From Pseudomonas viridiflava (GTDB lineage Bacteria > Pseudomonadota > Gammaproteobacteria > Pseudomonadales > Pseudomonadaceae), in contig NZ_UTBZ01000191.1 in the NCBI RefSeq assembly GCF_900580865.1, positions 1 through 64,000 on the forward strand: a stretch of DNA of 64,000 bases, in the 5' to 3' direction. The position numbers and the translations under genes were made by a program. The notes under the pieces are model-generated. The model saw only the letters and a list, made by a program, of their open reading frames with translations, was not told the DNA's origin and did not search any database. Positions 4,701 to 24,167 of this stretch are shown here, in pieces. Within the stretch, counting starts at the first letter, position 1; every line of letters begins with the position of its first letter.

Positions 4701-7700
4701 AGACCGACAAAGCGCTCGCCGACAACACCTTGCAATTGCAATCGGACCTGTTCGACAAGGGCTTCTCTGCCTATAACGTCATCGGCCTGAACCGACTGGA
4801 GGTGGCGAACAACACGCGCATTGACGTGTTGATGCCGGCCTATCGTTTTGCGGATGCGGCGACGGGTCAGGCCAGCGCTGGCAGTCCGCAGCAGGCGCTG
4901 GAGTTGTGGACGCCGACGCTCTATCAGGAAAACCCGACCAAGGCGCAACTGACCCAACGTGTCGGTGCCAGCCTGACCTTGCAGGCCGGTTCCAGCGAGG
5001 TGGCGTTGACCGATCCCGCGCGTAATACCCTGACCCTCGGCCAGGGTTCGCGCATCAGCGTCGACCCGGGCCAGCGCATCAACCTGCGCGGTGCCGGGCA
5101 AATCACCGTCGACGGTGAACTGAACGCCTGGGGCGGCACCATCGACATTCGTCAGCAGCAGTTCGGCGCGATCAACGTCGCTGAGTCCTCGCAGCGCGCA
5201 GACAACGAGGCGCACAACCGTTCGATCTGGATGGGTGAACACGCGGTACTCGACGTGGCTGGCCGTGCCGCCACGGCAGTGGATGCGCTGGGCCGGGTGT
5301 ATGGCTTGGTGGGCAAGGGTGGCAGCATCATCATTGGCGGTGAAACCGATTCGAAGAAAGCCACCGCCACGGCGGCCGATGCCTTTGTTATCGTGCGCAA
5401 CGGTGCTCGCCTGGATGCCTCCGGCGCTCAAGCCATGCTGGACATCGCGGGGCAGGGGCCAACCCTGGTCGCCACCGATGGCGGGCGCATTTCCTTGAGT
5501 TCCTACAACGGCCTGTTCATCGACGGCGACCTGCACGCGGCAGCCGGTGGCGTCGGCGCAGCGGGCGGTCGCCTGGACATCGCACTGGAGACTCCGCTTT
5601 ACAGCCGTGCCGCCGCCAGCAACGCCGTGCGGGTGCCACGGGAAATCATCATCGGCCAAGAGGCCGACAAAAACCGCTTGCCGAGCGATCTGCGAGCGGG
5701 CGAAGCCGACCCCTCGCTGCAATACGGGAGCGCCCGTCTGGGTGCCGGGCAGTTGATGGCTGGCGGCTTCGATACGTTGAGCGTGTTGAGCAATGGCTTG
5801 CTGTCGTTTGACGGTGACGTCGATCTGCACATGAACCAAAGCCTGAGCCTGTATGCCGGCGCCTTGTCGCTTGCCGAGTCTTCGAAAGACACGGCACGGG
5901 TGAATCTGTCGGCGCCTTATCTGCGCTTGTCGGGCACTGGCAAGTATTTCGAAGCCCCCGCCGATTTTCGTCCACGGGTGATGAACAACCCGACGAAGGC
6001 TGTGGCTGCCGCGCAGTTCACCGCCACCGCGGATCTTCTGGACCTGGGCAACAGTCTGTCGTTCGGCACGGCGGGGACGATTGCGCAGGCCAGCGGTCCG
6101 GCCTTGCAGGTCGGTCGCCGGGGCTTTGAGCAGGTCACGCTGGCAAGTCGTGGCGATCTGCGCTTCCTTGCCCCGACCGGCTACGTCACGAAAACCGAAC
6201 TGTGGACGGCTGCCGACTTAAACCTGCAGGCGGCGCAGATCTATCCCGCCAGCGATGTCACCGCCGAGGTGCGCGTGGGCTATCAAAGCGTGCAACCCGG
6301 TGCCGACCCGTTGCATACCTTGCGCATCACCGGCAGCGGCGCCGTCCCGGCGAACTTGCCTTACTCGGTGTTCGGCAACCTGACACTGGCTGCCGGCCGC
6401 ATCGAGCAGGGCGGTGTGATTCGCGCGCCACTGGGCATGATCACGCTCGGCGACGAAACCGTGGTCAACACCCATGAACTGCATCTGTTGCCGGGCAGTG
6501 TGACCTCGGCCAGCGCGGCCGGGCTGGTCATGCCATATGGCGGAACAACCGACGGCATCGACTATCGCTACGGCGGTAACCCGGTACTGCTCAGGGGCAT
6601 CACCGCTGACACCGCTGGCGTGACACTTACCTCGCGATATGTCGATGTGCAGAGCGGCGCCATGATCGATGTGTCCGGCGGTGGCGACCTGCGCGGTGCC
6701 GGGTTCGTGTCCGGACGCGGCGGTTCCACCGATGCCCGCTACAACCCGCTGGTGCGCAACGCCAACGATGGCAGCTTCAGCCTGCCAGGCCTGGCCAGCA
6801 ATCCGGTGTACGCCATTGTGCCGGGCAATCAGAGCACCTACGCACCGATGCTTGCCGAGGCGGGGGCGGTCGATCCGCGCATTGGCCAGCAGATCACTCT
6901 CGGCGCCGGCGTGCCGGGGCTGGCGGCGGGTACCTACACGTTGCTGCCGTCGACCTTTGCCTTGTTGCCCGGTGCGTTCCGGGTCGAAGTCAACGGCCAG
7001 GCCACTGCGGGCGTCAGCAACGCCGCGTTGCCAATGCGCAACGGCTCGTGGACGAGTTCGGGACAGATGTCGATTGCCCATACCGGGCTGCGTGACAGCC
7101 TTTCCAGCCAGGTTATCTTGACGTCTGCGGATGTTCTGCGGCGTTATTCGCAGTACAACGAAACCGGTTTGAGCCAATTCATCCAGAGCGACGCGGTGCG
7201 TCGTGGTGTGCCACGGGCGCTGGCGCCGATGGATGGCAAATCGCTGAATCTGAATCTGGCGCAGGGCGGCGAGCGGGACATTGCCCTGGACTTCAATGGC
7301 CAGGCGTTGTTCGCACCGGCTACGGGCGGGGTCGTCGGCACGGCAGCGGTGCGCGGCGCAATGGATATCGAGGTGCTCGGCGCCGGGCATTCACGCACCG
7401 CCGGTTTCAGCGGCGTGTCGTTATATGCCGACAGCCTCAACGGGCTCAACGCCGGACGCTTGACCCTCGGCGCGCGACCCACGGTGGATTACAGTGGCGC
7501 GGGCAATATCATTGCGTTCGTGGGAGATACCTCATCCATTACGCTGCGCGAGGGTGCGTTATTGGCGGCGCCTGAAGTGCTATTGCGCACCACCCGACAG
7601 GACGGCGGTATCACCCTCGAAGCCGGCTCGGGTATCAATACGTTGGGGCGTGGCAATGTACCTTACGATTCCGGCACGGGTTTTATCTATCAGCCGGGGG

Positions 7701-10700
7701 CAGCCGGTCTGCTGGTGGTGTCCAACGGCTGGACCAACGTCCTCGCCCCACAGGTCTCGGGCAGTACCTCCGGCGCCGGCGACATTCGCATCGGCAGTTG
7801 CCTGACGACAACGTGCAGTCAGCCGACGCAGCTCTATTCCAGTGGCAGCATCACCGCCGCGACCGACAAGCAGTTCGAGCTCGACGAGTCGGCACGCTTT
7901 GGCACCCGCCATCTGTCACTGGCCGTCGGCTCGGTCAATGCCGGTAGCGCCGAGGCCCTGAGCGCCGGCGGCAATCGCGTGCCGAGCGGCCTGACCCTGA
8001 ACCAGAATGTCTTGAATCGCCTGTTGCGCGGCGATACGCAGTTCGGCGCCCCGGCGCTGGAAACCTTGAGCCTGACCAGCCGTGACGCATTCAACTTCTA
8101 CGGCAATGTCAGCCTCGATACGCTGGATCCGCAAACCGGTGTCAGTCAATTACAGAACCTGATAATCACCACGCCGGCCATTTACGGCTTGGGTGAAAGC
8201 GCCGATGTGGCGTCCATTCGCACCGCCAAGCTGATCTGGAACGGTGCGACACAGGACCCCAGCGCCGTCATCAGCGGGGGCGCGGGCACCGGTAAGGGCA
8301 CGCTCGAGATTCAGGCGCAGCGTATCGAATTCGGCTACGGTGCCAATCCGCAGGCCAGCGGTCTGGAGCAGAACAATCGGCTGGCGCTGGGCTTTGCCAA
8401 CGTCAACCTCAGCGCCAGCGAACGCATCACGGCCAACCACAAGGGCAGCCTGGCGGTGTATCAGGAACAGGGTGCGTACGATCCGCTCAAGGGCTACGCC
8501 TACAGCGGCGGCAATCTCAACCTGCGCACGCCGCTGCTGACGGGCGAGGCCGCGTCGGTCAACCTGCTCAAGGCCGGCAACAACCTGACGCTCAGCGGCG
8601 CCGGCACGCCAGCGGCCGCCAACGCCTTGGGCGCGGAGCTGACTCTCGATGCCCGCAGCGTCGTACTGGACAGCCGCATCACCCTGGCCAGCGGCAAACT
8701 GCTGGTCAGATCCGAAGGCGACTTGACCCTCGCCAACGGCGCATCGCTGGACCTCGCCGGGCGCACCTTGGCGTTCAACGATGTGAACAAGTACAGCTGG
8801 GGTGGCGACGTGGCGCTGTACAGCAGCAACGGCAATATCCGTCAGGCCGCAGGCTCGCGGATTGATCTGTCGGCGCAGAACAATCAGGCCGGTAACCTCA
8901 GTGCCGTCGCGCTGGCCAGCGATGCGGGCATGGTTGATCTGCAAGGCCAGATCCTCGGGACCAGCAGCGGCCATTACGATGCCGGTGGCACGTGGGTGCC
9001 GTACAAATCCGCCGGCGTGGATATCCGTGCCCAGCACTTGAATGGTGATCCGAGCCAGCAATTCGCCGCGCTCAACCAGCGTTTGAACGCCGGACAAGTG
9101 TTCGGCAGCCGCAGCTTGCAACTCAAGCAGGGTGATCTGCTGATTGGCGACGGACTCAAGGCTGGCGAAGTGAACGTCTCGGTGGACAACGGCAGCCTGA
9201 CCGTCGCTGGCTTGATCGATGCCAGCGGCGAACGGGTCGGCAACATTCGCCTGTCGGCGCAAAACGGCCTGACCCTGGCCGGCAACGCCGTGCTTGACGC
9301 CCATGGTCGTGTGCTGCGGGTCGACAGCTACGGCAAGATCATCGACGCGCCGAACCGGGCGATGGTCGAACTCAATTCCGGTGAAGGTTTGTTGACCCTC
9401 GGCTCCGGTGCGCGGATCGATCTGCGCCATGGCACCGATGCCGTGCGCGGCATATTGCCCGGGCAGTCCGACGGGCTGTTGCGCGGCACGCTGGAGTTGA
9501 ACGCGCCGCGCCTTGGGGTCGATGACATCGCCATTGATGCCAGCGGTGCGCTGAGCATTCAGGGCGCGCGGTCGATTGGCCTTAACGCCACGCGGCGTTA
9601 TACCGATGCCCCCGACGGCGTCGACCCGGCGGCCAGCGGACGGCCGTATCAGGTGATCGATCAGGCCTACTTCGACCGCATCCATGCTGACAGCAGTGCG
9701 TTCATCGACGCGGCGCTAGCCAACCGCAACCTGCTGCAGAACAAATTGGCCGGGCTGAACAACGCCACGTATGCCGATGCCTTCCATCTGCGACCGGGCG
9801 TGGAAATCGCCAGCAAAACCGCCGACGGCGACCTGGTGGTACAGGGCGATGTGGATTTGTCCGGCTATCGCTATGCAAGCCTCAATCCGCATACGCAGAA
9901 AACCGCTGTGTACGGCTCGGGCGAGGCGGGCAGTCTGGTGATGCGTGCCGGCGGCAACCTCGATATTCATGGCAGCCTCAACGACGGCTTCGCGCCGCCG
10001 CCGGAGACCATGGACGATGCCGGCTGGAAGCTGCTGCCGGGTATCCAGCCGTTCGGTGGAGATCTGATCGTGCCGACAGCAGGCGTGACTCTGGAAGAGG
10101 GCACGCTGTTCCCGGCCGGTGTCACGTTGAACTACGACGTGCCGCTGCAAGCCGCGACGCTGCCCGCCGGAACCCTGCTGCCCACCGAGGCGACCCTGGC
10201 CGGACCGTATACCTTGGGCGCAGGAACAGTGCTGGCCGCTGCGGTACGCGATGCGACGGGCCAGTTGCTGTACGCAGCCGGTACGTTGCTGGTCGACAGC
10301 GTGACCTTGCCGGCGGGCAGTCGCCTTGGCGCGGGCATCCGCTTGAACAACGTGACGGCGATCGGCGCCGTTCGCTGGCCCAAAGGCGTGCCGTTGCCAG
10401 GCAACGTCGAGGCGGGCACCAATGCGATCAAGGGCATGCGCCTGAGCGGTTCGCTCGCTCTGCTGCGTGGCTCGCTGATACCGTCGATGACGGATGTCGT
10501 GTTGGCCGACGGCACCGCGTTCATTGAGTTGCGACCGATGAACGGCACGCAACAGGGGCGCAACTGGGCAGTCGCAAGCATGTTGCCGGCCGGCAGTGCG
10601 TCGTGGTCGATGCGCGTGGTGGCGGGTGCGGATCTGAGTGCGGCGGACAGCCGCGCGATCAAGCCGCTTTCCAGCGATGGCCACTTGCGTCTGGCCGACA

Positions 10701-13700
10701 CCCACTACGGCTTGAAGGTGACGGAAAAACCGCCGACGCTGGTCTGGGGCGACGGCAACCTGGGTGGTTTTACCCCCGGTGAGCCCGTGCCTGACGACCT
10801 GAAAGACTGGTGTGACTGGGCGCCGAACTCTTGCGTGCCGGCCCCGCGTTGGGCGTGGGCGCCGGACAACTGGCTGGGCATGCCTGCCGGCTCACCGATG
10901 AGCGACGATGACGTGGCGGCCTGGTGCAGTGCGTTCCCGGAATTGTGCGTCGAAAACAAACCGGGTATCACCGTCAAAACCCGCACGCAAATGTTCAGTG
11001 TGTTGCGCACCGGCACCGGCGATCTGGACGTGCTTGCGGCCGGCGATATGAGCATGGATTCACCGTTCGGCGTCTACACCGCCGGCACGCAGTCGCAGGA
11101 CGTCGACCCGCTGTACAACCAGCCTCGCGGACGCCTGTCGGACAACGGCTCGGTGCTGGGCAGTGGCGGCAGCGATTACGAAAAATGGGTCAGTGGCAGC
11201 GACAGTCTGTATCAGGCCTGGTATCCACAACTGGGTGGCAACCTGACGATCAATGCCGGCGGCTCGATTTCCGGCGATGTGCTGGGCCGTCGCGGGTACT
11301 CGCAAAACATGGATAGCCCGGAACAGGTGCCGAGTGTGGCCGTGGGCAATTGGCTCTGGCGTCAGGGCACCGGCAACAGCGATGTGCCGACGGCGTGGTG
11401 GATCAATTTCGGCAGCTATGCGACTCAGCCGTTGCCGGATCAAAGCGTCGACACTGGCCCCTTCCTGGTGGGGTTCACCGGTTTCGGGGCGTTGGGTGGC
11501 GGTAACATCAGCCTGCGCGCCGGTGCTGACGCCGGCATGCTCAAGGCCATGGGCGGCAGCGGCAACAGCAACCTTTATCCTCGTGGGCAGGGCTTGATCG
11601 TGGCAGTCGGCAGCACCGGACGTGTGGGCAACGACGGTACTCTGCAATTGACCGGCGGCGGCGACATGGACATCCGTGTGGGTGGCTCGGTCAACCCATC
11701 GCTGCAGGCCCGGGCGGGACAAAATGGTATCGGTGTTGCGCAACATGATCTGCAAGGTGCGTTGATCAACCTGCGCGGTGCCGCACAACTGACGGCTGGT
11801 GCGCTGGGCGGCATCAATCTTCAGTATGGCGCTGCCTCTCCCGTTCAGGACGTTCGTGAAGTCCGCCCGTACGATCCGTTTACGGCCACGCTGGGCAGCG
11901 CTTCCGGCGGCCTGGTATTGATCCCGGGCGACTCGGGCATGAGCCTGAACACCCGTGGCGATCTGGTGCTGGGTGGGGCGACGGACCCGGGGCGGGTGCG
12001 CTTGCAGAACTCTACGCCGTTCACCACCGATGACGGCGTCGTACACGACGGCGGCGGCTTGAGCGGCTTCTCGTTGTGGACCGATCACACGGCAATCAAC
12101 CTGTTTTCAGCGGGTGGCAATCTGACGCCGAGCACCCAACTGGGCGAAACCATCGGGCAAGGTCCCGTTACTGCGCGTAATACCTCGCCGACCGACGGGC
12201 GCTTTGTCTATCCGTCGATCTTGCGGGCATTGGCTGCGCAAGGCTCGATCTATGCCGGGCCGTCAGCGGTGTACAGCCAAGGCAGCGGCGTAGTGCCGGC
12301 AACGAGTTATTCATTGCTGCTGGCGCCGTCGGATGCAGGGCAACTGGAGTTGCTGGCGCAGGATTCGATCTATGCCGGCGGCTATGCGATCAACCAGTCG
12401 GGCGCCAGTCCACTGGCCATCGCCACACCGTTCGCTCCCGCATTCAATGGCTACGGCAGCAGTACGTCGGCGACGCCAATCATGACCAATCTGAACAGTG
12501 ACGGTGTCTCAGCGGACAAGAATGTGCGCTATCCGCTGTTTGCCTTTGGGCCCAACAGTTATTCGGGGCTGAGCGATGTACAGGCACCGGCACGGATCTA
12601 CGCCCTTACCGGTGATCTGGTGGGTGTGCGCAGTGGTGAAACGCTGACGTTCAATCTTTCCAGGCGCACCTGGTACGAAGCGGCCGGGCCGGTCTGGATG
12701 CTTGCCGGGCGCGACATTGTGGCGTCCGGCACTTTCCTCGGCCAGCCTGCTACCGCACCCAACGCGGAAATGGGCACGCCTCGTACCGAAGGCATTGCGT
12801 CGACAGGCAACCTGTTCGTGCATAACGATGCGCGGGATATCTCGCGGGTATCGGCAGGCCGCGACATTCTCTACAGCAGCTTCGACATCGCAGGGCCGGG
12901 TGTTCTGGACATCAACGCCGGGCGCAACATCCTCATGGAAGACCGCGCCAGTATTACCAGCATCGGGCCTGTGGTAGCGGGTGATAACCGCCCCGGCGCG
13001 AGTATCGTGATGCAGGCCGGTGTGGGCGCGCAGGGGCCGGGTTATGCCGCCTTCATCGCGCGTTATCTGAACCGCCAGAACGTCGCCAGGCCTGACCAGT
13101 CCCTGAGCGCGCAGCCGGGTAAAGTGGTCAAGACCTACCTCGATGAACTGCAGAGCTGGCTGACCCTCGGTTACGGCTTCAAAGGCAGTGATGAGCAGGC
13201 GCAAGCGTACTACGCCGCACTGCCGAGTACCGAACAGGCGATCTTCGCGCGGCAGGTCTACTTCGCCGAACTGCGCGCCGGTGGCCTGGAATACAGCGAC
13301 GTCGACGGCCCGCGTCAAGGCAGCTACTTGCGCGGTCGCAACGCCATCGCCGCGTTGTTCCTGAGCACCGACGTGGCCGGTAACCCGATCCGTTATGACG
13401 GCGACATCACGCTGTACGGCGGAGCAGGAGTCAAGACCCTGTTCGGCGGCGACATCCAGATGCTCACCCCGGGCGGCGGTCAGGTGTTCGGCATCGAAGG
13501 CGCGGCACCACCTTCGACGGCGGGGATCATTACTCAGGGTTCGGGCAATATTCAGCTGTATTCGCAGGGCAGCATTTTGCTCGGCCAGAGCCGGATCATG
13601 ACCACGTTTGGCGGCTCGATCCTCGGCTGGTCGGCCGAGGGCGACATCAACGCCGGTCGTGGCTCGAAAACCACTGTGGTCTACACCCCACCGAAACGGG

Positions 13701-14248
13701 TTTACGACACCTGGGGCAACGTGACCCTGTCGCCGTCGGTGCCAAGCACCGGCGCCGGTATCGCCACGCTCAACCCGATCGCCGAAGTGGCGCCGGGCGA
13801 TATCGACCTGATCGCGCCGCTGGGCACCATTGATGCCGGCGAGGCGGGGATTCGCGTGTCGGGCAACGTCAACATCGCCGCACTGACGGTGGTCAATGCC
13901 GCGAACATTTCGGTGCAGGGCAAGGCGACGGGGGTGCCGGTGGTGTCGGCGGTGAATACCGGTGCGATCACGTCAGCCAGTTCCGCCGCGTCGTCGGCCA
14001 CGCAAGCGGCGGAGGATGTTGCACGTCAGCAGCAAGCGGCATCGCGGCAGAACCAGGCCTCGGTGTTCACCGTGCAGGTGCTCAGCTTCGGCAACGAACA
14101 ACTTGCGCCTTCTCGCGATGGCGCCAGCCGTACGCCGGCCCCGGGTTACAACCCGAACAGCCCGGTGCAGGTTTTGGGTGCCGGGGCGCTGGATGATCAG
14201 GCGAAACAGCAGTTGACCGAAGAGGAGCGTGGGCAACTGACGTTGTAA
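1736..14248 (+). CDS. Giant filamentous-haemagglutinin family exoprotein (TpsA-like)
   Basis: A 4170-residue surface or secreted adhesin of the two-partner-secretion type. The ATG at 1736 follows AAGGA at 1721-1725; GTG at 1733 is an equally spaced alternative. An extended N-terminal segment of about 45 residues carries the export signal. Residues about 136-330 form the TPS haemagglutination-activity domain, with the NRNGIVFSGTSQVNVRNLVA stretch at about residue 223 that matches the family NPNGI region. The rest is glycine- and serine-rich beta-helix-like repeat. The C-terminus resembles the DUF3739-type end of long Pseudomonas FHA proteins. Cysteines are very rare: a CX4C at 2022-2027 and two CX6C pairs at 3026-3033 and 3064-3071. 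No TpsB/FhaC transporter is in the window. The last 684 coding bases are repeated at 15042-15725. Confidence 0.93.
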   Translation: MLARPSRRSTRVQPQPRAAVDPALWLLKPLAQAIALCLVAGSAEAATAFSSGWFAAKGAAQQASAARPSTGGLPGMTPPLAQQQKANQQLQRSIQTLNNTVAAIAAQQAAQAAGRASALNTVQFVPDGLGEGGLKVDNSLSQGWQNAKGPQQTQTDGKTTVKIEQTADKAILNWETFNVGRNTSVEFAQQANWAVLNRVNDPSARASQIQGQIKGDGTVMLINRNGIVFSGTSQVNVRNLVAAAANITDIQFRDRGLYFDSTGSQPTFTDAAGKVLVERGASIATHKPATSTAAGGYALLLGHEVQNDGNINTAKGQTVLGAGDRFYIRKGSGTEGNALSTTFGNEVTPGFNTAGATGKVSNNGLIQAATGDITLTGHEVVQNGVVLASTSVATRGTIHLLNPTTDTQGSVTLGQGSATAIMLDSSDLTALDSQYQAALTGVTPTNPIRSDQSRIDIQSGGSVEFQNGSITLATGGQVAVAAQRRSLVRDGALIDVSGAIGVKVAMESNSIKINVQGNEQRDAPVNREQGALNSNDVWVDVRELVYVPAGTNGYATDRWYTAGGLLEVGGYLGTQGHRIGEWMAQGGVVSFAGNDVVTEQGSLINLSGGTLDVQSGEIRQSWLRGADGHLYELSKAPGDLLYTGLYKGFEDSSERWGQTSYYYNPLIAPSKRREAGYTVGRDAGQLVIGTRNAVLDGQMLGEVYQGERQTQTPRAGLDGYAQSQTALARRGQLIVGRYDAAYVAAAGGLLYGLNPLLDQVQIGGELPVGGNDLDLTSAVSDAREGTLFLDAARLSDWQLGALKVAAKERIDVEGAVTVGNGGDITLYGPQVQVNADLTARSGSLHLGNVLNQLNTDRLTDTRIVAPTGKATGVSVAENVQLDSRGVWSNLRTDPDDASSLGYLNGGVISIRSSGDIDMGAGSLLDVSSGGGLLANGKARGGKGGDVSLESSALSAPGDTHLKFAGQLRGYGVTGGGSLLIQAANVLIGQTDKALADNTLQLQSDLFDKGFSAYNVIGLNRLEVANNTRIDVLMPAYRFADAATGQASAGSPQQALELWTPTLYQENPTKAQLTQRVGASLTLQAGSSEVALTDPARNTLTLGQGSRISVDPGQRINLRGAGQITVDGELNAWGGTIDIRQQQFGAINVAESSQRADNEAHNRSIWMGEHAVLDVAGRAATAVDALGRVYGLVGKGGSIIIGGETDSKKATATAADAFVIVRNGARLDASGAQAMLDIAGQGPTLVATDGGRISLSSYNGLFIDGDLHAAAGGVGAAGGRLDIALETPLYSRAAASNAVRVPREIIIGQEADKNRLPSDLRAGEADPSLQYGSARLGAGQLMAGGFDTLSVLSNGLLSFDGDVDLHMNQSLSLYAGALSLAESSKDTARVNLSAPYLRLSGTGKYFEAPADFRPRVMNNPTKAVAAAQFTATADLLDLGNSLSFGTAGTIAQASGPALQVGRRGFEQVTLASRGDLRFLAPTGYVTKTELWTAADLNLQAAQIYPASDVTAEVRVGYQSVQPGADPLHTLRITGSGAVPANLPYSVFGNLTLAAGRIEQGGVIRAPLGMITLGDETVVNTHELHLLPGSVTSASAAGLVMPYGGTTDGIDYRYGGNPVLLRGITADTAGVTLTSRYVDVQSGAMIDVSGGGDLRGAGFVSGRGGSTDARYNPLVRNANDGSFSLPGLASNPVYAIVPGNQSTYAPMLAEAGAVDPRIGQQITLGAGVPGLAAGTYTLLPSTFALLPGAFRVEVNGQATAGVSNAALPMRNGSWTSSGQMSIAHTGLRDSLSSQVILTSADVLRRYSQYNETGLSQFIQSDAVRRGVPRALAPMDGKSLNLNLAQGGERDIALDFNGQALFAPATGGVVGTAAVRGAMDIEVLGAGHSRTAGFSGVSLYADSLNGLNAGRLTLGARPTVDYSGAGNIIAFVGDTSSITLREGALLAAPEVLLRTTRQDGGITLEAGSGINTLGRGNVPYDSGTGFIYQPGAAGLLVVSNGWTNVLAPQVSGSTSGAGDIRIGSCLTTTCSQPTQLYSSGSITAATDKQFELDESARFGTRHLSLAVGSVNAGSAEALSAGGNRVPSGLTLNQNVLNRLLRGDTQFGAPALETLSLTSRDAFNFYGNVSLDTLDPQTGVSQLQNLIITTPAIYGLGESADVASIRTAKLIWNGATQDPSAVISGGAGTGKGTLEIQAQRIEFGYGANPQASGLEQNNRLALGFANVNLSASERITANHKGSLAVYQEQGAYDPLKGYAYSGGNLNLRTPLLTGEAASVNLLKAGNNLTLSGAGTPAAANALGAELTLDARSVVLDSRITLASGKLLVRSEGDLTLANGASLDLAGRTLAFNDVNKYSWGGDVALYSSNGNIRQAAGSRIDLSAQNNQAGNLSAVALASDAGMVDLQGQILGTSSGHYDAGGTWVPYKSAGVDIRAQHLNGDPSQQFAALNQRLNAGQVFGSRSLQLKQGDLLIGDGLKAGEVNVSVDNGSLTVAGLIDASGERVGNIRLSAQNGLTLAGNAVLDAHGRVLRVDSYGKIIDAPNRAMVELNSGEGLLTLGSGARIDLRHGTDAVRGILPGQSDGLLRGTLELNAPRLGVDDIAIDASGALSIQGARSIGLNATRRYTDAPDGVDPAASGRPYQVIDQAYFDRIHADSSAFIDAALANRNLLQNKLAGLNNATYADAFHLRPGVEIASKTADGDLVVQGDVDLSGYRYASLNPHTQKTAVYGSGEAGSLVMRAGGNLDIHGSLNDGFAPPPETMDDAGWKLLPGIQPFGGDLIVPTAGVTLEEGTLFPAGVTLNYDVPLQAATLPAGTLLPTEATLAGPYTLGAGTVLAAAVRDATGQLLYAAGTLLVDSVTLPAGSRLGAGIRLNNVTAIGAVRWPKGVPLPGNVEAGTNAIKGMRLSGSLALLRGSLIPSMTDVVLADGTAFIELRPMNGTQQGRNWAVASMLPAGSASWSMRVVAGADLSAADSRAIKPLSSDGHLRLADTHYGLKVTEKPPTLVWGDGNLGGFTPGEPVPDDLKDWCDWAPNSCVPAPRWAWAPDNWLGMPAGSPMSDDDVAAWCSAFPELCVENKPGITVKTRTQMFSVLRTGTGDLDVLAAGDMSMDSPFGVYTAGTQSQDVDPLYNQPRGRLSDNGSVLGSGGSDYEKWVSGSDSLYQAWYPQLGGNLTINAGGSISGDVLGRRGYSQNMDSPEQVPSVAVGNWLWRQGTGNSDVPTAWWINFGSYATQPLPDQSVDTGPFLVGFTGFGALGGGNISLRAGADAGMLKAMGGSGNSNLYPRGQGLIVAVGSTGRVGNDGTLQLTGGGDMDIRVGGSVNPSLQARAGQNGIGVAQHDLQGALINLRGAAQLTAGALGGINLQYGAASPVQDVREVRPYDPFTATLGSASGGLVLIPGDSGMSLNTRGDLVLGGATDPGRVRLQNSTPFTTDDGVVHDGGGLSGFSLWTDHTAINLFSAGGNLTPSTQLGETIGQGPVTARNTSPTDGRFVYPSILRALAAQGSIYAGPSAVYSQGSGVVPATSYSLLLAPSDAGQLELLAQDSIYAGGYAINQSGASPLAIATPFAPAFNGYGSSTSATPIMTNLNSDGVSADKNVRYPLFAFGPNSYSGLSDVQAPARIYALTGDLVGVRSGETLTFNLSRRTWYEAAGPVWMLAGRDIVASGTFLGQPATAPNAEMGTPRTEGIASTGNLFVHNDARDISRVSAGRDILYSSFDIAGPGVLDINAGRNILMEDRASITSIGPVVAGDNRPGASIVMQAGVGAQGPGYAAFIARYLNRQNVARPDQSLSAQPGKVVKTYLDELQSWLTLGYGFKGSDEQAQAYYAALPSTEQAIFARQVYFAELRAGGLEYSDVDGPRQGSYLRGRNAIAALFLSTDVAGNPIRYDGDITLYGGAGVKTLFGGDIQMLTPGGGQVFGIEGAAPPSTAGIITQGSGNIQLYSQGSILLGQSRIMTTFGGSILGWSAEGDINAGRGSKTTVVYTPPKRVYDTWGNVTLSPSVPSTGAGIATLNPIAEVAPGDIDLIAPLGTIDAGEAGIRVSGNVNIAALTVVNAANISVQGKATGVPVVSAVNTGAITSASSAASSATQAAEDVARQQQAASRQNQASVFTVQVLSFGNEQLAPSRDGASRTPAPGYNPNSPVQVLGAGALDDQAKQQLTEEERGQLTL

Positions 14249-14297
14249 AAGACTCTCGTGTAGTACGTTTGGGCGACCGGTTGGTCGCCCTTTTTTT
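13565..14297 (+). repeat. Direct repeat, first copy (partner 15042-15774)
   Basis: The 3' end of the exoprotein gene plus its terminator is repeated 1477 bases downstream with no insertion or deletion. The two copies differ at many third codon positions but at only eight of the last 216 amino acids. The toxin-antitoxin pair lies between them. Confidence 0.95.
14271..14297 (+). terminator. Terminator of the exoprotein gene
   Basis: GGGCGACC and GGTCGCCC form an eight-pair stem followed by seven T. It lies 22 bases after the stop. A diverged copy ends the second repeat. Confidence 0.93.
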
Positions 14298-14580
14298 ATG
14301 TTGATGAAGTTGAAGGGTATTTTTGCCGGGCGTGAAGCACCCCCAGTATTCTGATGCGCCCATTCACTCGATAGACCAGCAGATAGTTCGGATGAATCAC
14401 CATCTCACGAGTACCAGGCACTCGGCCAGGTCGGTAACCGTAAGGTATTGATGAAAGCCGTTGTGCTGCCGCACCAACCTTGTGTCTTAGCGAAATTGAA
14501 GCGTTGGTGTTGTGTTGCTCGATGTATTTGAAGATGTCAGCCAGTTGACGCGAGGACTTGCTGCTCCATTCAAGCAGCAG
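14296..14580 (-). CDS. ParE/RelE-superfamily toxin
   Basis: About 94 residues, the normal length for ParE toxins. Recognisable features are LEWSSKSSRQLADIFKYIEQ near the start and, near the end, the ParE-like stretch GTREMVIHPNYLLVYRV followed by IRILGVLHARQKYP. Family members poison gyrase (ParE) or cleave mRNA on ribosomes (RelE); which applies here is unknown. The start is uncertain: no ATG, GTG or TTG sits at the expected place, whereas CTG at 14580 or 14577 follows AGGAAG (14588-14593). Upstream in-frame ATGs lie well inside the antitoxin gene. The gene overlaps the end of the antitoxin gene by 11 bases, as expected for a coupled antitoxin-toxin operon. Its stop codon lies inside the exoprotein terminator. 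Confidence 0.85.
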   Translation of the reverse strand: MLLEWSSKSSRQLADIFKYIEQHNTNASISLRHKVGAAAQRLSSIPYGYRPGRVPGTREMVIHPNYLLVYRVNGRIRILGVLHARQKYPSTSST

Positions 14581-14764
14581 AGCGGCGCTTCCTGCGCATC
14601 TCTTCCAGCATCTGGTCGAGCATCGCCATAGCCTCATCATGGGGAATACCAGGACTAGGATCATCGAGTGCATCCTGTACCTCTGCACGAAACCAGCGAT
14701 CGTAGCTCTCGGCCTCTTCTTCGGATTCGAAGTCAGAGTAAAACGGGGAAAGTAATATGCTCAT
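14570..14764 (-). CDS. PaaA2-like (stability-determinant) antitoxin
   Basis: A 64-residue acidic protein beginning MSILLSPFYSDFESEEEAES and containing YDRWFRAEVQDALDDPSPGI then PHDEAMAMLDQMLEE. This matches the short antitoxin family paired with ParE2-type toxins (PaaA2 or 'stability determinant'). The start ATG at 14764 is supported by GGAG a few bases upstream. It is first in the operon, so it would be made before the toxin. The basic C-terminal tail (RRKRRSAA) is encoded where the toxin frame begins. Direct DNA binding is not obvious, because no ribbon-helix-helix domain is visible. Confidence 0.82.
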   Translation of the reverse strand: MSILLSPFYSDFESEEEAESYDRWFRAEVQDALDDPSPGIPHDEAMAMLDQMLEEMRRKRRSAA

Positions 14765-15041
14765 AGTGATCTCCGTGATCAATCTCGGCAGTTTAAGGGG
14801 GACATGGCCCATTGTCGTCGTCTGGCAGACGATGTACCCCATGGACCCTTGAGGATCCATGGGATAACGGAGCCCAGTATCTGTAAGCGCACCCTTTAAA
14901 TCTGCCAGACGTTTCCCCCTGTTGTCCGGTAATCTCGATCTCCGCTGTAGGTGTATTCCACCCATGCGTTTTTCATATTTACTGCCTACAAAGCCGGCTG
15001 TGTTTTCCTACAAAAATAAATAAATCCGTCCCCTGTCCCTA
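14765..15041. other. Non-coding spacer with inverted repeats upstream of the antitoxin
   Basis: No gene is visible. It contains a hairpin CCCATGGA...TCCATGGG (14838-14863, no T-run) and an 11-bp inverted repeat CGTCTGGCAGA (14819-14829) / TCTGCCAGACG (14901-14911). These may be operator sites for the toxin-antitoxin operon or scars of the event that placed it here. It looks less GC-rich than its surroundings. Confidence 0.5.
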
Positions 15042-15725
15042 CAGGGCAGCATTCTGCTCGGCCAGAGCCGGATCATGACCACCTTCGGCGGCTCAATCCT
15101 CGGCTGGTCGGCCGAGGGCGACATCAACGCCGGTCGTGGCTCGAAAACCACCGTGGTCTACACCCCGTCGAAACGGGTTTACGACACCTGGGGCAACGTC
15201 ACCCTGTCGCCATCGGTGCCGAGCATCGGCGCCGGTATCGCCACGCTCAACCCGATCGCCGAAGTGAAGCCGGGCGACATCGACCTGATCGCGCCGCTGG
15301 GCACCATCGATGCCGGCGAGGCGGGGATCCGCGTGTCGGGTAACGTCAACATCGCCGCGTTGACGATGGTCAACGCCGCGAACATCTCGGTGCAAGGCAA
15401 TGCAACGGGTGTGCCAGTGGTGTCGGCGGTGAATACCGGCGCGATCACTTCGGCCAGCTCCGCCGCATCGTCGGCCAAGCAAGCGGCGGAAGATGTCGCC
15501 CGTCAGCAGCAAGCAGCGTCGCGGCAGAATCAGGCGTCGGTGTTTACCGTGCAGGTATTGAGTTTCGGCAATGAGCAACTCGCGCCGTCGCGCGATGGCG
15601 CCAGCCGTGCGCCGGCACCGGGTTACAACCCGAACAGTCCGGTGCAGGTGTTGGGCGCCGGGGCGCTGGATGAACAGGCGAAGCAGCAGTTGACCGAGGA
15701 GGAACGTGGGCAACTGACGTTGTAA
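15042..15725 (+). pseudogene. Orphan 3' fragment of the exoprotein gene
   Basis: The reading frame is intact to the same stop codon as the full gene, covering the last 227 codons. It has no signal peptide, no TPS domain and no convincing ribosome-binding site; the first ATG at 15075 is an internal codon of the full gene. The last 216 residues differ from the full copy at only eight positions although the DNA differs far more. That pattern is expected if both copies diverged while still under protein-level selection, for example when this one belonged to another full-length gene. It could be a recombination donor for the C-terminus or simply debris. Confidence 0.85.
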
Positions 15726-15747
15726 AAGACTCTCGTGCAGTACGTTT

Positions 15748-15774
15748 GGGCGGCCGTTTGGTCGCCCTTTTTTT
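15748..15774 (+). terminator. Terminator of the orphan fragment
   Basis: A diverged copy of the terminator at 14271-14297, with changes mainly in the loop. The outer stem GGGCG...CGCCC and the T-run are kept. Confidence 0.85.
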
Positions 15775-15859
15775 ACCTGTACAAATACACTTGAACTACT
15801 TTCGCTGCGATACGAAATGGAGGTGGCCGCTATACGCGGGTCGCAGACTGGGACTACCG

Positions 15860-18800
15860 CTAATAGTTGTCGCTGATTAGCCCCCCAATCACCAAGACCG
15901 ATGATGAGGTGGCGTTGCCGACATAAGCACGGGTACCGTCCGTGCTAACGGCGATCCCGTACGGATTGCTTCCGCCAGGGATGTTCTTCAGGACTTTATT
16001 TGTCGTCGTGTCAATTATCGAAACCGTGTGACTACCATGATTGGAGACAAAAATGCGGCTACTTTCCGGGCTGACAGCGATCCAGTACGGATTACTCCCG
16101 ACCTGGATATTCGTTAAGACTTGATCCGTCGCCGTGTCAATCACTGAGACCGTATTGCTAGTCCAGTTGCTTGCATAAACGCGGGTACCGTCAGGGTTGA
16201 TTACGATCCCGGTCGGCTTGGTTCCGATAGGGATGCTCGTAAGGACTCGATCCGTCGTCGTATCAATAACCGAGACCGTGTTGCTAACCCAGTTGCTCAC
16301 GTAGACTCGGTTACCGTCCGGGCTGACGGCGACGCCGTAAGGACTGTTCCCGGTAGGGATATTCGTCAGGACTTGATCCGTTGCCGTATCAATCACTGAG
16401 ATCGTGTGGCTACCAAAATTGCTGACATAAGCGCGGGTGCCGTCCGGGTTGAAGGCAATCCCTCTCGTGTAGGTCCCACATGAAATGTTCGTCATGACCC
16501 GATTCGACGCCGTGTCAATCACCGAGACCGTTCCGCGATCATAGCAGCAGACATAAGCGCGGGTACCATCTGGGCTGACGCCAACCCATCTCGGCCCGTT
16601 CCCGACCGGGATGGTCGTCAGAACCTTATTCGTTGCCGTATCGATTACCGAGATCGTGTGGCTGGCAGAGTTACTGACATAAGCGCGGGTACCGTCCGGA
16701 CTGATAGCGATCCCGTCCGGGCCGATCCCGACCGGAATTTTACCCTCCGGCCCCAGCCCTGTAACGGCTACGTTTGCGGTGTCGACCTGAATACCACTGG
16801 TGGCGCTCAGAGTGTAGGAGCCAGGGAGCTGCGTGCCTTTGACGCCGCTGACGGTGACCCTGCCGACAGCGTCGGTAATGAAGTCACGCTGGCCGCTGTC
16901 GCCATTGGAGTACGTAAAGTTGGCCGGGAGCGTCAGACTCAGGTGCCCCCCGGGGATGGGCGTGTTACTGCTGTTACGAAGATGCAGTTCAACATCCTTG
17001 AGCTGACCGTGCGGCGCAATGGTATAGGGCGCGTTGTTGAAGCCAGGCACGCCGTACTGTTTTTTACTGACCGTATAGACGCGCAATGGGAAGGTGACCA
17101 CATTAACGGTATCCAGCGACGCTTTGAACACCACCTTCAATTCGCTTTCGTGCGGCAAATCCTTCAGATAGCTATAAGGCGCAGTAACCGTGTAATAGCC
17201 CTGATCCAGCCATGCCTGATGCACGGCATGTTTGTCTGCCGTGAGTAGGGCGCAGTCATGTGAAGCACCGTCGGCTTTCTTGCCTTGCAGCGTTAACTCG
17301 ACGGGTTGACCAACAGCGCCAAGGGGCCAGATGTTGGTACGAATCGAGGCGCCGTTGACCAATGCAGTGATGTCCAGCTCTGGCCCCTCTCCATCGTTCG
17401 GTGCCTCGGTGATCCAGGATTTTTCCAGCGCACTTTCAGGCATCGGCAACACCGTGACAGTACAGGAGGGAGAGGGTACCGGTTCATTGTCACCCCGTAT
17501 CACGCTGTAGCTCACTGTCACCGATTTACCGAGGTTGTACGCCACCACCGAATTAGGCATTGGTACTTCCTTGCCCTCCTGTGTAGTTACGTCCACAGGG
17601 CCGACCGTTTTACTGCCTTCTCCGGGAGTACCCGTCCAGGTTACGCTGACTTGGGTACCGATCATGTTTGCGTAAGCGGGCACTACTGCAGTCAGCTTGT
17701 CTCTGGCGGCAATCGGTTCGAGGGTATTATTCGGCGCTTCTTTGATACTTGGAGGTGTAAGATTTTCCTCCTCGGCGACCTTGATGATCCATGCCTCGGA
17801 CTCCGGCATTTCGCCGTAATTACCCTTGACCGTGTAGCGGTGATCACCAAGGGCTTGCATGGCCAGTGGATGTTCCCATGCTCCTTTTTCATCGATGGGG
17901 ACAGTTGCTGCCGGGGCACCGTTATCGCGTAACTCGATCGTCAGCCCTGCGCTGGCGTGGCCGCTGAATTTGAATGAGGTTTCGGTAGTACCGCTGCCGC
18001 TTGGGATCTCTTTGCCACTGACTGAACCGGTTACAGAATCAATCGTCGGCGGATCCAGTGCCACCGGTTGCCCTACCGTAAACTCCAACACATTCGAATA
18101 ACTGGTCGTATTGCTCGCCGCCCGGAAAATCTCGTAGTGCACCTTCACTTTTTTCCCGCGATTAGGCTCGATGTGCTGGGCCACAAACGCCGCGTTCAGC
18201 GGGAAATCCACGTCCTTGTCTTTGGACAGTGCGTTGAGTTTTTTAAAGTCGGTAACAGGCTCATTGCCTTCAACGATCCAGAAAAACTTCACGATATCGT
18301 TGGCCTCGCTCGGAACAGCCACCGGCCGTGGCGCGGTGATTTTGCTGGTGCCGCCGGGCAGGTCTTCGGGTTCGAGTACGCCATCTTTTTCACCCAGCAC
18401 GATGGGTTTGACCAGTTCGCGTTGCGCTTCGCCGACGTTCAACAGCGGGGCGTGCAGAGAGTCGCGGCGGGTGATGGTGCCGTTTTCGTCGGTCAGCAGG
18501 TAGTACGACAGGTCCAGCGTGCCGCCCTCGAGGGTTTTGCCGTGTTCGCCGGCGACGGTGATGATGAACCCCTTGGGGTCATTGGCCTCGTCTTCGCTGG
18601 GGAAATACCAGTCCAGTTCGGGGTCGTAAATCGTGAGGTCGGACCGGATGCCGAACAATTTGGGCACGATGGCGTTGTCCGGGGTGATCAGCGGATCGTA
18701 GGGAATGCGGATGCGGTATTCGGGCGCGTTGGGGTCGAGCGCGCCACTGATGGCGTCCAGCGCAATCGGCGCCGCCAGGCGCGTGGCCTCGCCGATGATG

Positions 18801-19933
18801 TTGTAGGAGCGCCCCTTGGATTTCAATGTCTCGATAACCTTGCCGTCACGCTCCAGTTGGTAAGAGTACACCGCCGTGCGCTTGGCCAATGCACGAATAC
18901 CGGCGTTGCTGTGCGCAACCTTGACTAGCGTTGGTGGCGTCTTGTCGATCGACTGGCGTACCGTGATATTGATCGGCTGATCCTCGGCGGTGGTCCCGGC
19001 CAGCTTCAGGATGATGATGTCGCCCTTGATGAACTGGTCCGAGCTCGCCCAGACCTGCAGCACGGGCTTGTCGTCACCCAGTACGTCCAGATCCACGGTG
19101 AGACCGTCGGCCTGTTCGAGAATGGGCGCGTCCAGCCGTGAGTTGCCGGTGTCGACGACAATGCGCTGGGCCTTGCACCAGTCTTCGGACTGGTTGAGTA
19201 CTCGGTCGCGGATCATGTAGCTGACGGACAGGCCCTCGAGATCGGAGTCACCAGCACCTTCAATCGTGGCTGCGTCGATATCGATCAGGATCGGGTTCGC
19301 GTCCGGGTCATCGATCTGCGCTTGGGTAATGGACTTGTATTCCACGCTTTCACCGCCCCACCCGACGGTGATCGTATCTCCCACAGCCATATTAAGGTAA
19401 GGCTGGCCGGTGCCGGACTTGGGCGCAACGCGGACTTTCACGCCTTGCTTGGCCGTTTCCTTGTCGACACCATCAAGCACGATCTCCGGAGGAATGAAGG
19501 CCATGGCCAGTTCGGAGTGGCCGTAATCGGGGTTGGTGTCCTGACCGCCAGGCAGCTCGAGTTTGACGAAGATCTTGATCGTCGGTCCTGGCTCGGGCTT
19601 CTGCCCGAACCGCGTGACTTGGTAGGACAGCTCCCAGTCGCCGCTGAGCAAACGCTCGGGCGCGACGAAGAGGGTGACGTGCTTGTCCACCTCGATGTCT
19701 TCGGTGATGGTCTTTTGCGCGACCATGGTGGTGTTCAGGAACAACTTGCAGTTATCGCTCCTGCTCATGTTGTTCCAGGCGGGAATCTGGACCTTCAGCC
19801 CCTTGTCGGGGTAATTGAGTCGTGCGGCGGCGAGGTTGACGCCCCAGGTGCCGTCATCGAGTAATCGGCCGCCGGGGATTTCCGGGTCGAGCAAGGCCAG
19901 GACCGAGATTTGTTTGCGGGGTTGGATGAGCAT
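15860..19933 (-). CDS. Giant modular protein with C-terminal seven-blade YVTN propeller
   Basis: 1357 residues. The ATG at 19933 is preferred to the in-frame GTG at 19942 because AGGAG sits eight bases before the ATG. The N-terminal ~600 residues resemble those of the next protein and contain repeated Ig-like segments (such as GDTITVGWGG). A region near residue 1030 resembles a bacterial Ig-like/Big_1 fold. The last ~295 residues are seven ~42-residue repeats of the type GIAISPDGTRAYVSN...VSVIDTATNKVLTNIPVG, the count needed for one closed YncE/YVTN propeller. The DNA of these blades is strongly repetitive (15866-16740). No N-terminal signal peptide or transmembrane segment is apparent. A surface or binding role is inferred from domain types only. 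A lux-box-like palindrome lies 64 bases upstream. Confidence 0.85.
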   Translation of the reverse strand: MLIQPRKQISVLALLDPEIPGGRLLDDGTWGVNLAAARLNYPDKGLKVQIPAWNNMSRSDNCKLFLNTTMVAQKTITEDIEVDKHVTLFVAPERLLSGDWELSYQVTRFGQKPEPGPTIKIFVKLELPGGQDTNPDYGHSELAMAFIPPEIVLDGVDKETAKQGVKVRVAPKSGTGQPYLNMAVGDTITVGWGGESVEYKSITQAQIDDPDANPILIDIDAATIEGAGDSDLEGLSVSYMIRDRVLNQSEDWCKAQRIVVDTGNSRLDAPILEQADGLTVDLDVLGDDKPVLQVWASSDQFIKGDIIILKLAGTTAEDQPINITVRQSIDKTPPTLVKVAHSNAGIRALAKRTAVYSYQLERDGKVIETLKSKGRSYNIIGEATRLAAPIALDAISGALDPNAPEYRIRIPYDPLITPDNAIVPKLFGIRSDLTIYDPELDWYFPSEDEANDPKGFIITVAGEHGKTLEGGTLDLSYYLLTDENGTITRRDSLHAPLLNVGEAQRELVKPIVLGEKDGVLEPEDLPGGTSKITAPRPVAVPSEANDIVKFFWIVEGNEPVTDFKKLNALSKDKDVDFPLNAAFVAQHIEPNRGKKVKVHYEIFRAASNTTSYSNVLEFTVGQPVALDPPTIDSVTGSVSGKEIPSGSGTTETSFKFSGHASAGLTIELRDNGAPAATVPIDEKGAWEHPLAMQALGDHRYTVKGNYGEMPESEAWIIKVAEEENLTPPSIKEAPNNTLEPIAARDKLTAVVPAYANMIGTQVSVTWTGTPGEGSKTVGPVDVTTQEGKEVPMPNSVVAYNLGKSVTVSYSVIRGDNEPVPSPSCTVTVLPMPESALEKSWITEAPNDGEGPELDITALVNGASIRTNIWPLGAVGQPVELTLQGKKADGASHDCALLTADKHAVHQAWLDQGYYTVTAPYSYLKDLPHESELKVVFKASLDTVNVVTFPLRVYTVSKKQYGVPGFNNAPYTIAPHGQLKDVELHLRNSSNTPIPGGHLSLTLPANFTYSNGDSGQRDFITDAVGRVTVSGVKGTQLPGSYTLSATSGIQVDTANVAVTGLGPEGKIPVGIGPDGIAISPDGTRAYVSNSASHTISVIDTATNKVLTTIPVGNGPRWVGVSPDGTRAYVCCYDRGTVSVIDTASNRVMTNISCGTYTRGIAFNPDGTRAYVSNFGSHTISVIDTATDQVLTNIPTGNSPYGVAVSPDGNRVYVSNWVSNTVSVIDTTTDRVLTSIPIGTKPTGIVINPDGTRVYASNWTSNTVSVIDTATDQVLTNIQVGSNPYWIAVSPESSRIFVSNHGSHTVSIIDTTTNKVLKNIPGGSNPYGIAVSTDGTRAYVGNATSSSVLVIGGLISDNY

Positions 19934-19996
19934 GACGGGCACTCCTGCCGGGGGGTGGGGGCGATGGAGTGATTAGGGGATAAAACCGGGAAATGC

Positions 19997-20157: not shown

Positions 20158-23100
20158 TCATCGGATCCCGACAATATTCGAGGCGTGCCCGTATTCTCTC
20201 GCGTCGCCATCCCCGCCCCAAACCAGATATTTGGTTCTTCTACCTTTGAATGGCCACCAGTAGCTGCTCCAATCGGTCGACCAGTAATGGTGATTACCCA
20301 TCGGCCAGTTAGCCCCATAAGCAGCATGAATTTCGTTTAATTCCCCCATGCTGGGAATACGCGCCCCAAACGCGCCGACGTTGGCATTGGCCATCGCCCA
20401 GCCACCGTTCCCACCGCCATAACAGAGAATGACGTTCGTCACTGATACGCTGAAGCTTTTGGATTGCTGGGCAGTGTCTCTGGCCGTGATAGTCGCTGTG
20501 CCTCTCCCCCTGGCGGTAACAAACCCTCTGGAATCAACGGCTGCCACCGCTGGGTTGCTGGAGCTGTAAGTGATGGTTCCTGTTCCCCCGGTGGCTGATC
20601 GCAATATCGAGTTACCGGAATTCGGAGTGGGGAACACGTTAGGGTAGCCCGCACAAATATAAGTCTTGCCACCCAATGTGACCGGACTTGTGTCGAAGCT
20701 CATTGGATGGATTCTGCGAAATGTTCGCGTTGTGGAGATCTGCTCGGTACTCAATGCTTTGGCGTACACCGAATGTTCACCAAGGGCGATTGCAAAGGGG
20801 GTCGTCCAGGTTCCTTTGGCATCGGCGGACACGATGATATCTGTGGCTGCACCCAAATCATAAATCTGCACCTGATACAAAGGTGTGACCTCGCCCGTCA
20901 AAACAACCGACGTATCGACAGTAGGTCCCCCATTACTCAACTCGCCTCCCGAGTGCCTTACCGATGTCAGCGTCACGGCCTTGTGGGGGGTGACCGTAAA
21001 GTTGTGGGCGGGGGATTCCAGTTGTTCACCATAAAGGGCTCGTACCTTGATGGCGTAGGATTTCAGGGCCAGCGTCGATAGTTTTGTCGAGCCGTTGCCC
21101 TCGCCATCCAGAGTGACAGGGTCGCCGATGGGAGCGGTATCGTCATAAAGCTGAACACGCTGGTCGGGATCTGCGAATACGGCAACGGTGATTTCTCTGT
21201 CGTACGTTATGCCGTTGTGCGCGACCGCTCCTTTGGAGTCATTGACTGCCGTGATACTGGGTCTGGTGGCAATACCGATGGTAAATGTGCGTGGGGTGCC
21301 GTCCGGTACATCGGCGTCGTACAAAGCTTTCACCGTAACGGTTTGCAGGCCTTCGACGAGGTCGTCTGCAGGAGATTCCCACTCCCACAGATCCGTGGCT
21401 TGCGGTGTGCCTTTGGGGACACCATTGACCCTGATCTCGACCTTTTCACCGCGCGTCGCCGTGCCATGGATCGTCACGCGTTTGTCGTAGGTCAACCCGG
21501 CTTCGGGAATTTCCTGGCCTTGCGGATTGAGGATTTTGGTGATGACCGGCGTCACATAGTCGTAGCGTGTGCGGATAGTCAGTGGCAGGGCAGGGAACTC
21601 GATTGCAGCGGTCTCTTCCGTGCTGTTGTCGAAAATCACTTTGCATTTCACCACGGCGGGAGAGCTGTGCCGCAATTTCAGGAGTTCACTTCTGAGCAAG
21701 GGTTCGTCGAGGCCTCCAGCCACTTGCTGGTCACTGATTTGATGATCTTTCAATACATCGATCCGGTAGCTGCCGGTGCTGGTTTCGCCCTCGACATAGA
21801 GCCACGTGTGCTGGCCCTTGGCAATAAATGGCCATACGTTCACCAGCACCCTCGCATCGCCGACAAACTCCATCAAGTCCAGAACCGCCTTGTCTGCCTG
21901 AGGTACATGCGGAGTGGGCAGATCGTTTTCCGGATCCTGGAAGTCGAGGATATTCAATGGCAGCGCTTCGGAAGGCGTCCACAAGCCATAGCGCTGTACG
22001 TCATAGCTGACGCCAACCGAGCGCCGAATGTTGGCACCCACAAACGAGGCGGGCAGGTGAAAGATGACGATGCCGGAAGATTCAGCGGGTTGTTCCAAGT
22101 CCTCTGATGTACCGGCCCCGGGCGTCCCCCGCCATTTCAGCGCGAGGGTGTCGAGTGCTTCGTCCATGCTGAGATAACTGCACTCGATATCGACACCGTT
22201 GAGTGCATCCATCGGGTTCAGCGAACCGTTGGGTGCTTGTAAAACAGTAGGCGCAGGCAAAAGCCCCACGGGGATGCCAACCATCACCTCGAAGGGCGCC
22301 GAATAGCTGTACTTTCCCGTCGCGGCATGCAGCAGGGTGTAACGGACAGTGACCGTATAGCCGATATTGGCCGAGACGTATTTGACATCCACCCGAAAGC
22401 GCGCGGTCTTGTCGATCGACAACTGAGTGATGGGGACGCTGCCTTTGGTTGAGCTGGACGCGGAGATACCAATCCAGTGATACGTCAGCGTGTCGCCCTT
22501 CATCCAATTGACCGGTTTTACCAGCACATGAGCCTGGGTATACACCAGCGTCGGGTCGATCACGCCATCTTTGGCTTCTTCTACATCGGGGGCCGGCAGT
22601 GTGGCGGGGAGCGCGCGTACTTCGACCCGCAGAAAGTCAGACTCACTGAGTCCATAGTCGGCAGCATCGTCGTTGTACACCCGGTAATAGAGTTTGAGGC
22701 TGCCGTTGTTCAACGGGAGAATGTGCTCGTTCATCACATAGATGTACGTAAAGCCTGCCTGCTCATCGTTATTGCTGACGTCATACGCTTCCTCATACTC
22801 ATAGGAGCTGCCGTCTGGTTTCGTGCCTTCCCAGATCATGTTGATCGAGTCGCCGACTTTAAGGCTCGGGTAAGCAATTCTGACGGTCGCTGTTTTGCTG
22901 TCGGCGGGCAAAATGGCACCGATTACCTCTTCAATGATCGGCGCCGGCAACAGCGCCGGGTTGCCGATCACTTTGACGAAGGTGCGTTTGGAATAGAGCT
23001 TCGAGCCATCGCTTTTTTTGTGCAGTACATAGGAGCCATCGAGTGTCCCGGTGGCGAAGAGACTGACGAATGCAAAAGGGATCGGGAACTCGAGAATGTA

Positions 23101-24099: not shown

Positions 24100-24167
24100 G
24101 AGCAACACCGCCTGAAAGGGAAAAAACGGGTGATTCCCTTTTAGTCCCATCGATTGCTCATTGACTA

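Follow-up and report, generated by a model that had tools for sequence, protein, structure and literature searches.

Homology-facilitated illegitimate recombination (HFIR), in which incoming DNA is joined without homology at one end and resident DNA is lost, is described in the accessible part of its source for three competent species (S. pneumoniae, A. baylyi and P. stutzeri) and for E. coli conjugation, and its joins mostly carry 3-10 bp of microhomology (PMC3240628). In Vibrio type VI secretion system (T6SS) clusters, a new module displaced the 3' end of the old effector, and the text available to us proposes an HFIR-like process (PMC5361080). In Pseudomonas, orphan cdiA-CT modules contain toxin sequences together with immunity genes, according to the available part of the corresponding article (PMC4725963). 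This work concerns a 64,000-nucleotide stretch of Pseudomonas viridiflava DNA (NCBI RefSeq assembly GCF_900580865.1, contig NZ_UTBZ01000191.1, positions 1 to 64,000; the window), in which a ParE/PaaA2-like toxin-antitoxin (TA) pair lies between two copies of the 3' end of a filamentous haemagglutinin (FHA)-like gene. We consider it probable that two haplotypes, one with the TA pair and one with immunoglobulin (Ig)-like and beta-propeller genes, recombined at this site with one homologous and one illegitimate end.

The locus shares with HFIR, as far as the source text available describes it, an end joined without homology, which in HFIR goes with a loss of resident DNA (PMC3240628). It differs in that the join lacks microhomology of 3-10 bp, in that it is a natural product seen only afterwards and in that its homologous end is not located. 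We read the structure in terms of the HFIR pattern because one homologous and one illegitimate end yield it in a single event; on this reading it is a new case of a known recombination pattern at a site that exchanges TA pairs. For the displaced effectors and orphan immunity genes of the Vibrio T6SS clusters, a similar mechanism is suggested by the authors in the excerpted text, whereas here a DUF3739 terminus is displaced instead of a toxin, and a type II TA pair takes the place of the effector-immunity pair (PMC5361080). With the orphan cdiA-CT/cdiI modules, as presented in the part of the source at hand, the sole likeness is a 3' fragment without a start signal behind an FHA-type gene (PMC4725963); here no toxin domain was found in the fragment, an immunity gene is lacking, and the TA genes form a type II module on the other strand.

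The FHA-like gene (1709-14248, plus strand) encodes a two-partner secretion (TPS) exoprotein of 4179 aa with a TPS domain near the N-terminus (PF05860, E 4.2e-27) and DUF3739 near the C-terminus (PF12545, E 1.2e-38), and the upstream repeat copy is the genuine 3' end of this 4179-codon gene. Copy 1 (13565-14298, plus strand), comprising this end and its terminator, aligns without gaps at an offset of 1477 with copy 2 (15042-15775, plus strand), an orphan FHA 3' end with terminator. The copies differ at 62 of 734 bp (91.6% identity), and a chance origin of the repeat is out of the question. An 8-pair terminator stem followed by a T tail stands in both (14271-14290 and 15748-15767). Within the coding part of 684 bases there are 59 mismatches, distributed 7/3/49 over the three codon positions, which amount to 49 silent codon differences and 8 amino-acid replacements. 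Replacement and silent rates (dN and dS) between the copies are 0.020 and 0.342 by NG86, 0.017 and 0.49 by YN00, and 0.017 and 0.54 by maximum likelihood. A first-pass annotation, made from the sequence of the window, had described a repeat with its terminator around a ParE/PaaA2-like pair and eight amino-acid differences against many more silent ones; both descriptions are confirmed by these counts, and the excess of silent over replacement rates speaks in its favor. The FHA and toxin genes run towards each other and meet at a single terminator, the hairpin and T tail at 14271-14298 (plus strand), whose end is overlapped by the ParE stop codon (14296-14298, minus strand). Similarity between haplotypes shifts right at this overlap.

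In related Pseudomonas, the interval that separates the FHA terminator from a porin-like gene is either empty, or holds a TA pair, or holds Ig-like/beta-propeller genes. The porin-like Phenol_MetA_deg gene (24282-25241, minus strand) forms the right boundary of the variable site. An empty site, i.e. the version free of the insert that the first-pass annotation had proposed to look for, is found in Pseudomonas sp. AKS31 (G231) and P. koreensis DSM 16610, which favors that annotation. The TA haplotype is carried by G111, G062, P. crudilactis and others, and in G111 (FHA-TA-porin) the matches to window positions 45-15014 and from 24282 on are separated by 5 bp. Carriers of the Ig-like/propeller type are P. 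fluorescens HKI0874 (G055, locus L084; FHA-propeller), G097 (FHA-Ig) and Irchel 3H7, and P. fluorescens PS655 (L097) has the TA pair plus an Ig-type gene with other DNA between them.

Relatives show each parental arrangement, and the window, in which the join can be placed to the base, is read as a hybrid: copy 1, the TA pair and 27 bp of the TA haplotype appear to be joined to copy 2 and the propeller gene of the Ig haplotype at 15041/15042. PS655 matches the FHA end, the TA pair and the 27 bp (15015-15041), which form the right end of the TA haplotype and were found among the loci examined only in this strain; its identity stops at window position 15041 and the sequence continues with other DNA. 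HKI0874 matches from 15042 through copy 2 into the propeller gene, with 95% identity to 17275 and 91% out to 18111, where the HKI0874 contig ends; in 120-base steps over 15762-17100 identity is mostly 97-99%, with some steps at 93-96%. The parental sequences, which are those of relatives and not the true parents, share no base at the join; a few bases to its left, a CTGT lines up in register. Ahead of 15041/15042, the sequence differs from the one that leads into copy 1 in the FHA gene. When 398 genomes of the genus were searched, no other genome had the join among the matches listed, which end by 15014, or begin at 15041 or later. Likewise, in none of 109 loci does the FHA 3' end occur twice in the DNA examined (about 1.5-10 kb out). 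These 109 comprise 80 named loci and 29 others, partly the same genomes counted twice, all collected by the 3'-end stretch, and the genome samples, which overlap between searches, are part of a larger genus. The window thus offers a base-exact example of two downstream gene sets at a variable site that would have been stitched together, leaving a scar. The 27 bp were also considered as the end of a mobile element and rejected: their core AAATCCGTCCCC occurs 3 times in the genome, once near a paralogue of the Ig-like gene on contig C52, and no element was recognised.

Over 681 bp, the two copies have 91.3% identity, a dN of 0.020 and a dS of 0.34. For comparison, 34 of the 38 loci L083-L120 whose 681-base slice was stop-free and ended in LTL were retained (L109, L111, L115 and L116 were dropped), giving 561 pairs with a mean identity of 89.7%, a mean dN of 0.015 and a mean dS of 0.47. 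Of these pairs, 22% equal or exceed the two copies in similarity, and in 83% the dN does not exceed that between the copies. Because the divergence of the copies lies within this spread, we take them to be alleles of different lineages with divergence at interspecies level. The proposal that the repeat is not a recent local duplication is upheld by the same comparison. The search that the first-pass annotation suggested for a full-length donor allele gave no close donor of either copy in the sample. Its capture by homologous recombination stands as far as a different allele and recombination between strains are concerned, but not as homology alone, as the join at 15041/15042 has none.

The following sequence of events is what we infer. 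The site from the FHA terminator to the porin-like gene would carry exchangeable haplotypes in this Pseudomonas group. In an ancestor of the strain, an arrangement of FHA copy 1, TA pair and 27 bp probably recombined with one of a second FHA 3' end, propeller gene and Ig gene. Homology would have joined one end of the incoming DNA, either within the FHA gene or upstream of it, or else within the Ig genes or past them; the junction at 15041/15042 would be the other, illegitimate end. Copy 2 would then be what is left of the second FHA allele, its 3' end. Two directions fit, namely entry of the TA side into a propeller-type resident or of the propeller side into a TA-type resident. In a tree of the core region, a single region 26 kb away from the site and not genome-wide, the nearest rows are L100, whose site is empty, and L084, of the propeller haplotype, and this relatedness leans towards the TA side as the incomer. 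The propeller module is mostly 97-99% like that of L084, above the 92% of the core region, and this high identity leans towards the propeller side. If copy 2 was resident, the genome's lack of another FHA body is consistent with the second FHA gene having lost its 5' part. A left crossover at about 14000 inside the repeat, by which a single resident gene would have supplied both copies, was rejected, since differences between the copies occur to the left as well as to the right of this position.

Several points weigh against recombination between the two haplotypes as described. No sampled relative is close to either copy, the best of the 34 reaching 94% to copy 1 and 93% to copy 2. Sliding ancestry maps place changes of ancestry on both sides (near 13240, 14265, 14740 and 17150-17400), none assignable to this event. 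The join lacks the microhomology of 3-10 bp that is usual in HFIR according to the part of the source available (PMC3240628). An assembly chimera of two alleles is conceivable on sequence alone, as the 6.77-Mb draft genome consists of 228 contigs, the window being C208; we nevertheless judge it very unlikely, given that the join lies at the unique edge of copy 2, outside the shared sequence, that the 27 bp preceding it exist in PS655, that the genome has a single FHA gene body and that its contamination estimate is 0.94.

The main rival to a single recombination event is a path in two steps, in which two complete FHA alleles would have come to lie in tandem by additive integration, after which a deletion ran from behind the TA pair to the position in the second FHA gene equivalent to 13565. 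This path gives an identical final sequence and agrees with the own genome, where no second FHA body or 3' end was found elsewhere with the 3' region and the FHA body as queries, a result that also supports the single event. The two-step path requires two events instead of one, and the finding that none of the 109 loci has an additional FHA 3' end speaks against it, with the restriction that the DNA examined there is shorter than the 12.5-kb gene; overall we consider it unlikely, while giving it more weight than any other alternative. If the FHA 3' end had recently been duplicated on the spot, on either side of the TA pair, this would account for a direct repeat in the same orientation, and yet the copies are as distant as species, and copy 2 continues unbroken into the downstream DNA of another haplotype, so that this origin can practically be dismissed.

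Some prophages supply a replacement gene 3' end on integration, and the repeats could by analogy be the ends of an integrative element: the 3' end of a gene is duplicated around an insert and the full gene is still open. Against such an element, besides the TA frames there is no open reading frame of more than 131 aa between the repeats, which is too short for an integrase, relatives carry the TA pair without a second 3' end, and the repeat is long and diverged, all of which makes it exceedingly improbable. Hardly more credible is copy 2 as a functional orphan C-terminal module as in contact-dependent growth inhibition (CDI) loci, to which the first-pass annotation had likened the layout. The orphan 3' end does lie downstream of an FHA-type gene and has an open frame of 216 codons. 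However, it holds only a DUF3739 terminus and no toxin domain, no start signal was found for it and an in-frame TAA stands 7 codons upstream, its private replacements fall at residues conserved in relatives, and directly downstream on its strand there is no immunity gene; the next gene, for a propeller protein, lies on the minus strand and is by its domains not an immunity gene. Furthermore, the FHA 3' end is 92-93% conserved (G062, G231, G036 and G111) versus 77-89% for the whole matched FHA gene, where the presence of this end in every locus follows from the design, as the loci were collected by it. The likeness to CDI modules is therefore not sustained.

Copy 2 looks like a dead, decaying remnant that drifts without constraint. 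Of the 8 replacements between the copies, 5 are private to copy 2, which has 0 private silent changes; these replacements are at residues common to copy 1 and all 34 relatives, versus 2 silent and 0 replacement changes private to copy 1. The summed controls have 25 replacement and 87 silent changes without the outlier L114 (Fisher p 0.00085), and 46 and 104 with it (Fisher p 0.0034). The residue of copy 2 at the five private places occurs in none of the 109 loci. The in-frame TAA is at 15021, seven codons ahead of copy 2, the first ATG follows only after 11 codons (15075), the copy lacks the TPS (secretion) domain, and a scan of 13900-16000, which detects consensus sites only, found no sigma-70-like site. 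We attribute the high dN between the copies to this decay, so that the overall dN/dS ratio would combine an early period under constraint with a later period free of it. By a rough hand estimate (5 changes over about 520 replacement sites, compared with a between-species dS of about 0.47), the orphaning would date from a late stage in the evolution of the group.

The TA pair consists of a ParE-family toxin gene (14296-14580, minus strand; PF05016, E 3.5e-12), whose start is uncertain, the longest open frame reaching 14688 and overlapping the antitoxin, and a PaaA2/RelB-like antitoxin gene of 64 aa (14570-14764, minus strand; PF21217, E 3.9e-16; NF050103). The matches exceed the curated cut-offs (47.2 versus 23 bits for ParE and 59.2 versus 27 bits for the PaaA2-like protein) and agree with the identity given to the pair before; NCBIfam places toxin and antitoxin in the RelE/StbE and RelB families. 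With open, overlapping genes, the pair is an ordinary type II module by sequence and probably works. As in other ParE/PaaA2-type modules, the PaaA2-like antitoxin gene stands just ahead of the ParE-family toxin gene and overlaps it. The three-gene form of E. coli O157 includes a third, regulator gene; no regulator gene is seen beside the pair here, and the pair occupies a fixed chromosomal site with exchange of alleles.

Both TA genes lie directly behind the FHA gene in 19 of the 80 named loci, the antitoxin alone in 2 and the toxin alone in none. At 5 of the 80, fewer than 1000 bases follow the FHA end, where a TA pair could escape detection, as could a more diverged pair at the threshold used (E 1e-4). 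The first-pass annotation had treated the TA pair as the trapped novelty. A TA pair beside the FHA gene is, on these counts, common, and the novelty is the join rather than the pair, as no locus examined has a second FHA 3' end. Its reading of the pair as an insert is weakened by the occurrence of TA genes at the same place in many relatives. A literature search found no known association of FHA genes with TA pairs, as judged on titles and the openings of abstracts, with most subscription journals outside its coverage.

On a tree of a 5.2-kb region from 30 genomes, the presence of TA requires 9 changes, at least 6 of these being forced by well-supported branches, and shuffled labels give a mean of 9.1 changes versus the 9 observed. 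For this tree L088 was counted as TA despite its missing toxin gene, and L097 and L101 were counted as TA despite also having Ig genes. In the comparison of TA and core region, which took 17 of 31 rows (more than 65% of TA aligned), similarity of the TA genes exceeds that of the core region by over 3% in 27 of 136 TA-bearing row pairs and falls short of it by over 10% in 48. The TA pair of the window is 99.1% identical to that of P. crudilactis, with a core region at 91.4%. TA alleles seem to move between species at the FHA site, most simply by recombination in the flanks. The locus may be seen as a fixed site at which Pseudomonas species gain and lose a ParE/PaaA2-type pair, apparently by flank recombination.

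It is doubtful, though worth stating, that the TA pair shaped which recombinants survived, the far rarer illegitimate product being one that kept the TA pair and left a redundant FHA end. Ordinary homologous exchange via the FHA 3' end would delete the TA pair from a recipient that bears it and expose this cell to its own toxin. Hints that fit are the 2 of 80 loci with antitoxin and without toxin, with no case of the reverse, and the tandem TA pairs of G213. This reading requires the TA side to be the resident, and against it stands the frequent change of TA presence on the tree, by which loss and gain are not rare. If it were true, TA modules at such sites would bias the outcomes of chromosomal gene exchange; the site is in any case a natural system for asking whether toxin-antitoxin genes bias recombination outcomes. 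The two loci with an antitoxin match and no toxin match at the FHA site are L088 and L113. G213 (L016 and L076) has two tandem TA pairs behind the FHA gene, one of them with a stop inside the ParE match.

The closest named relatives of the strain are Pseudomonas of the koreensis/fluorescens group. In the FHA gene, ancestry changes sharply at about 13240, with 98-100% identity to G111 leftward and 84-92% across the next 250 bases; FHA bodies, too, seem to be exchanged between lineages. An Rfam scan of 13000-16500 at gathering scores gave no known RNA. The region upstream of the antitoxin (14765-15014) is common to other TA-bearing relatives by its sequence matches. The stretch 14740-15014 is more alike among TA types than the toxin gene: in steps of comparison with G111, identity is 92-94% at 14740-14860 and 85% at 14920, versus 74-79% at 14320-14560. 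This stretch could hold a shared operator or promoter.

To the right of copy 2, a dispersed repeat of about 55 bp (15800-15855) is present that many genomes of the genus carry elsewhere. The Ig-like/YncE beta-propeller protein gene follows at 15860-19942 (minus strand), the stretch 15042-17275 being 95% identical to HKI0874, and a second large gene with a Big_2 Ig-like domain, of the same haplotype and matched in G097, lies at 20158-24315 (minus strand). At 15860-18000, the C-terminus of the Ig-like gene is a YncE-like propeller here and in HKI0874 and a different end in PS655, and the gene seems to have exchangeable C-terminal parts. On contig C52 of the own genome, at about 323791 and 325800, are found a partial paralogue of the Ig-like gene (86%) and the AAATCCGTCCCC motif, some 2 kb apart.
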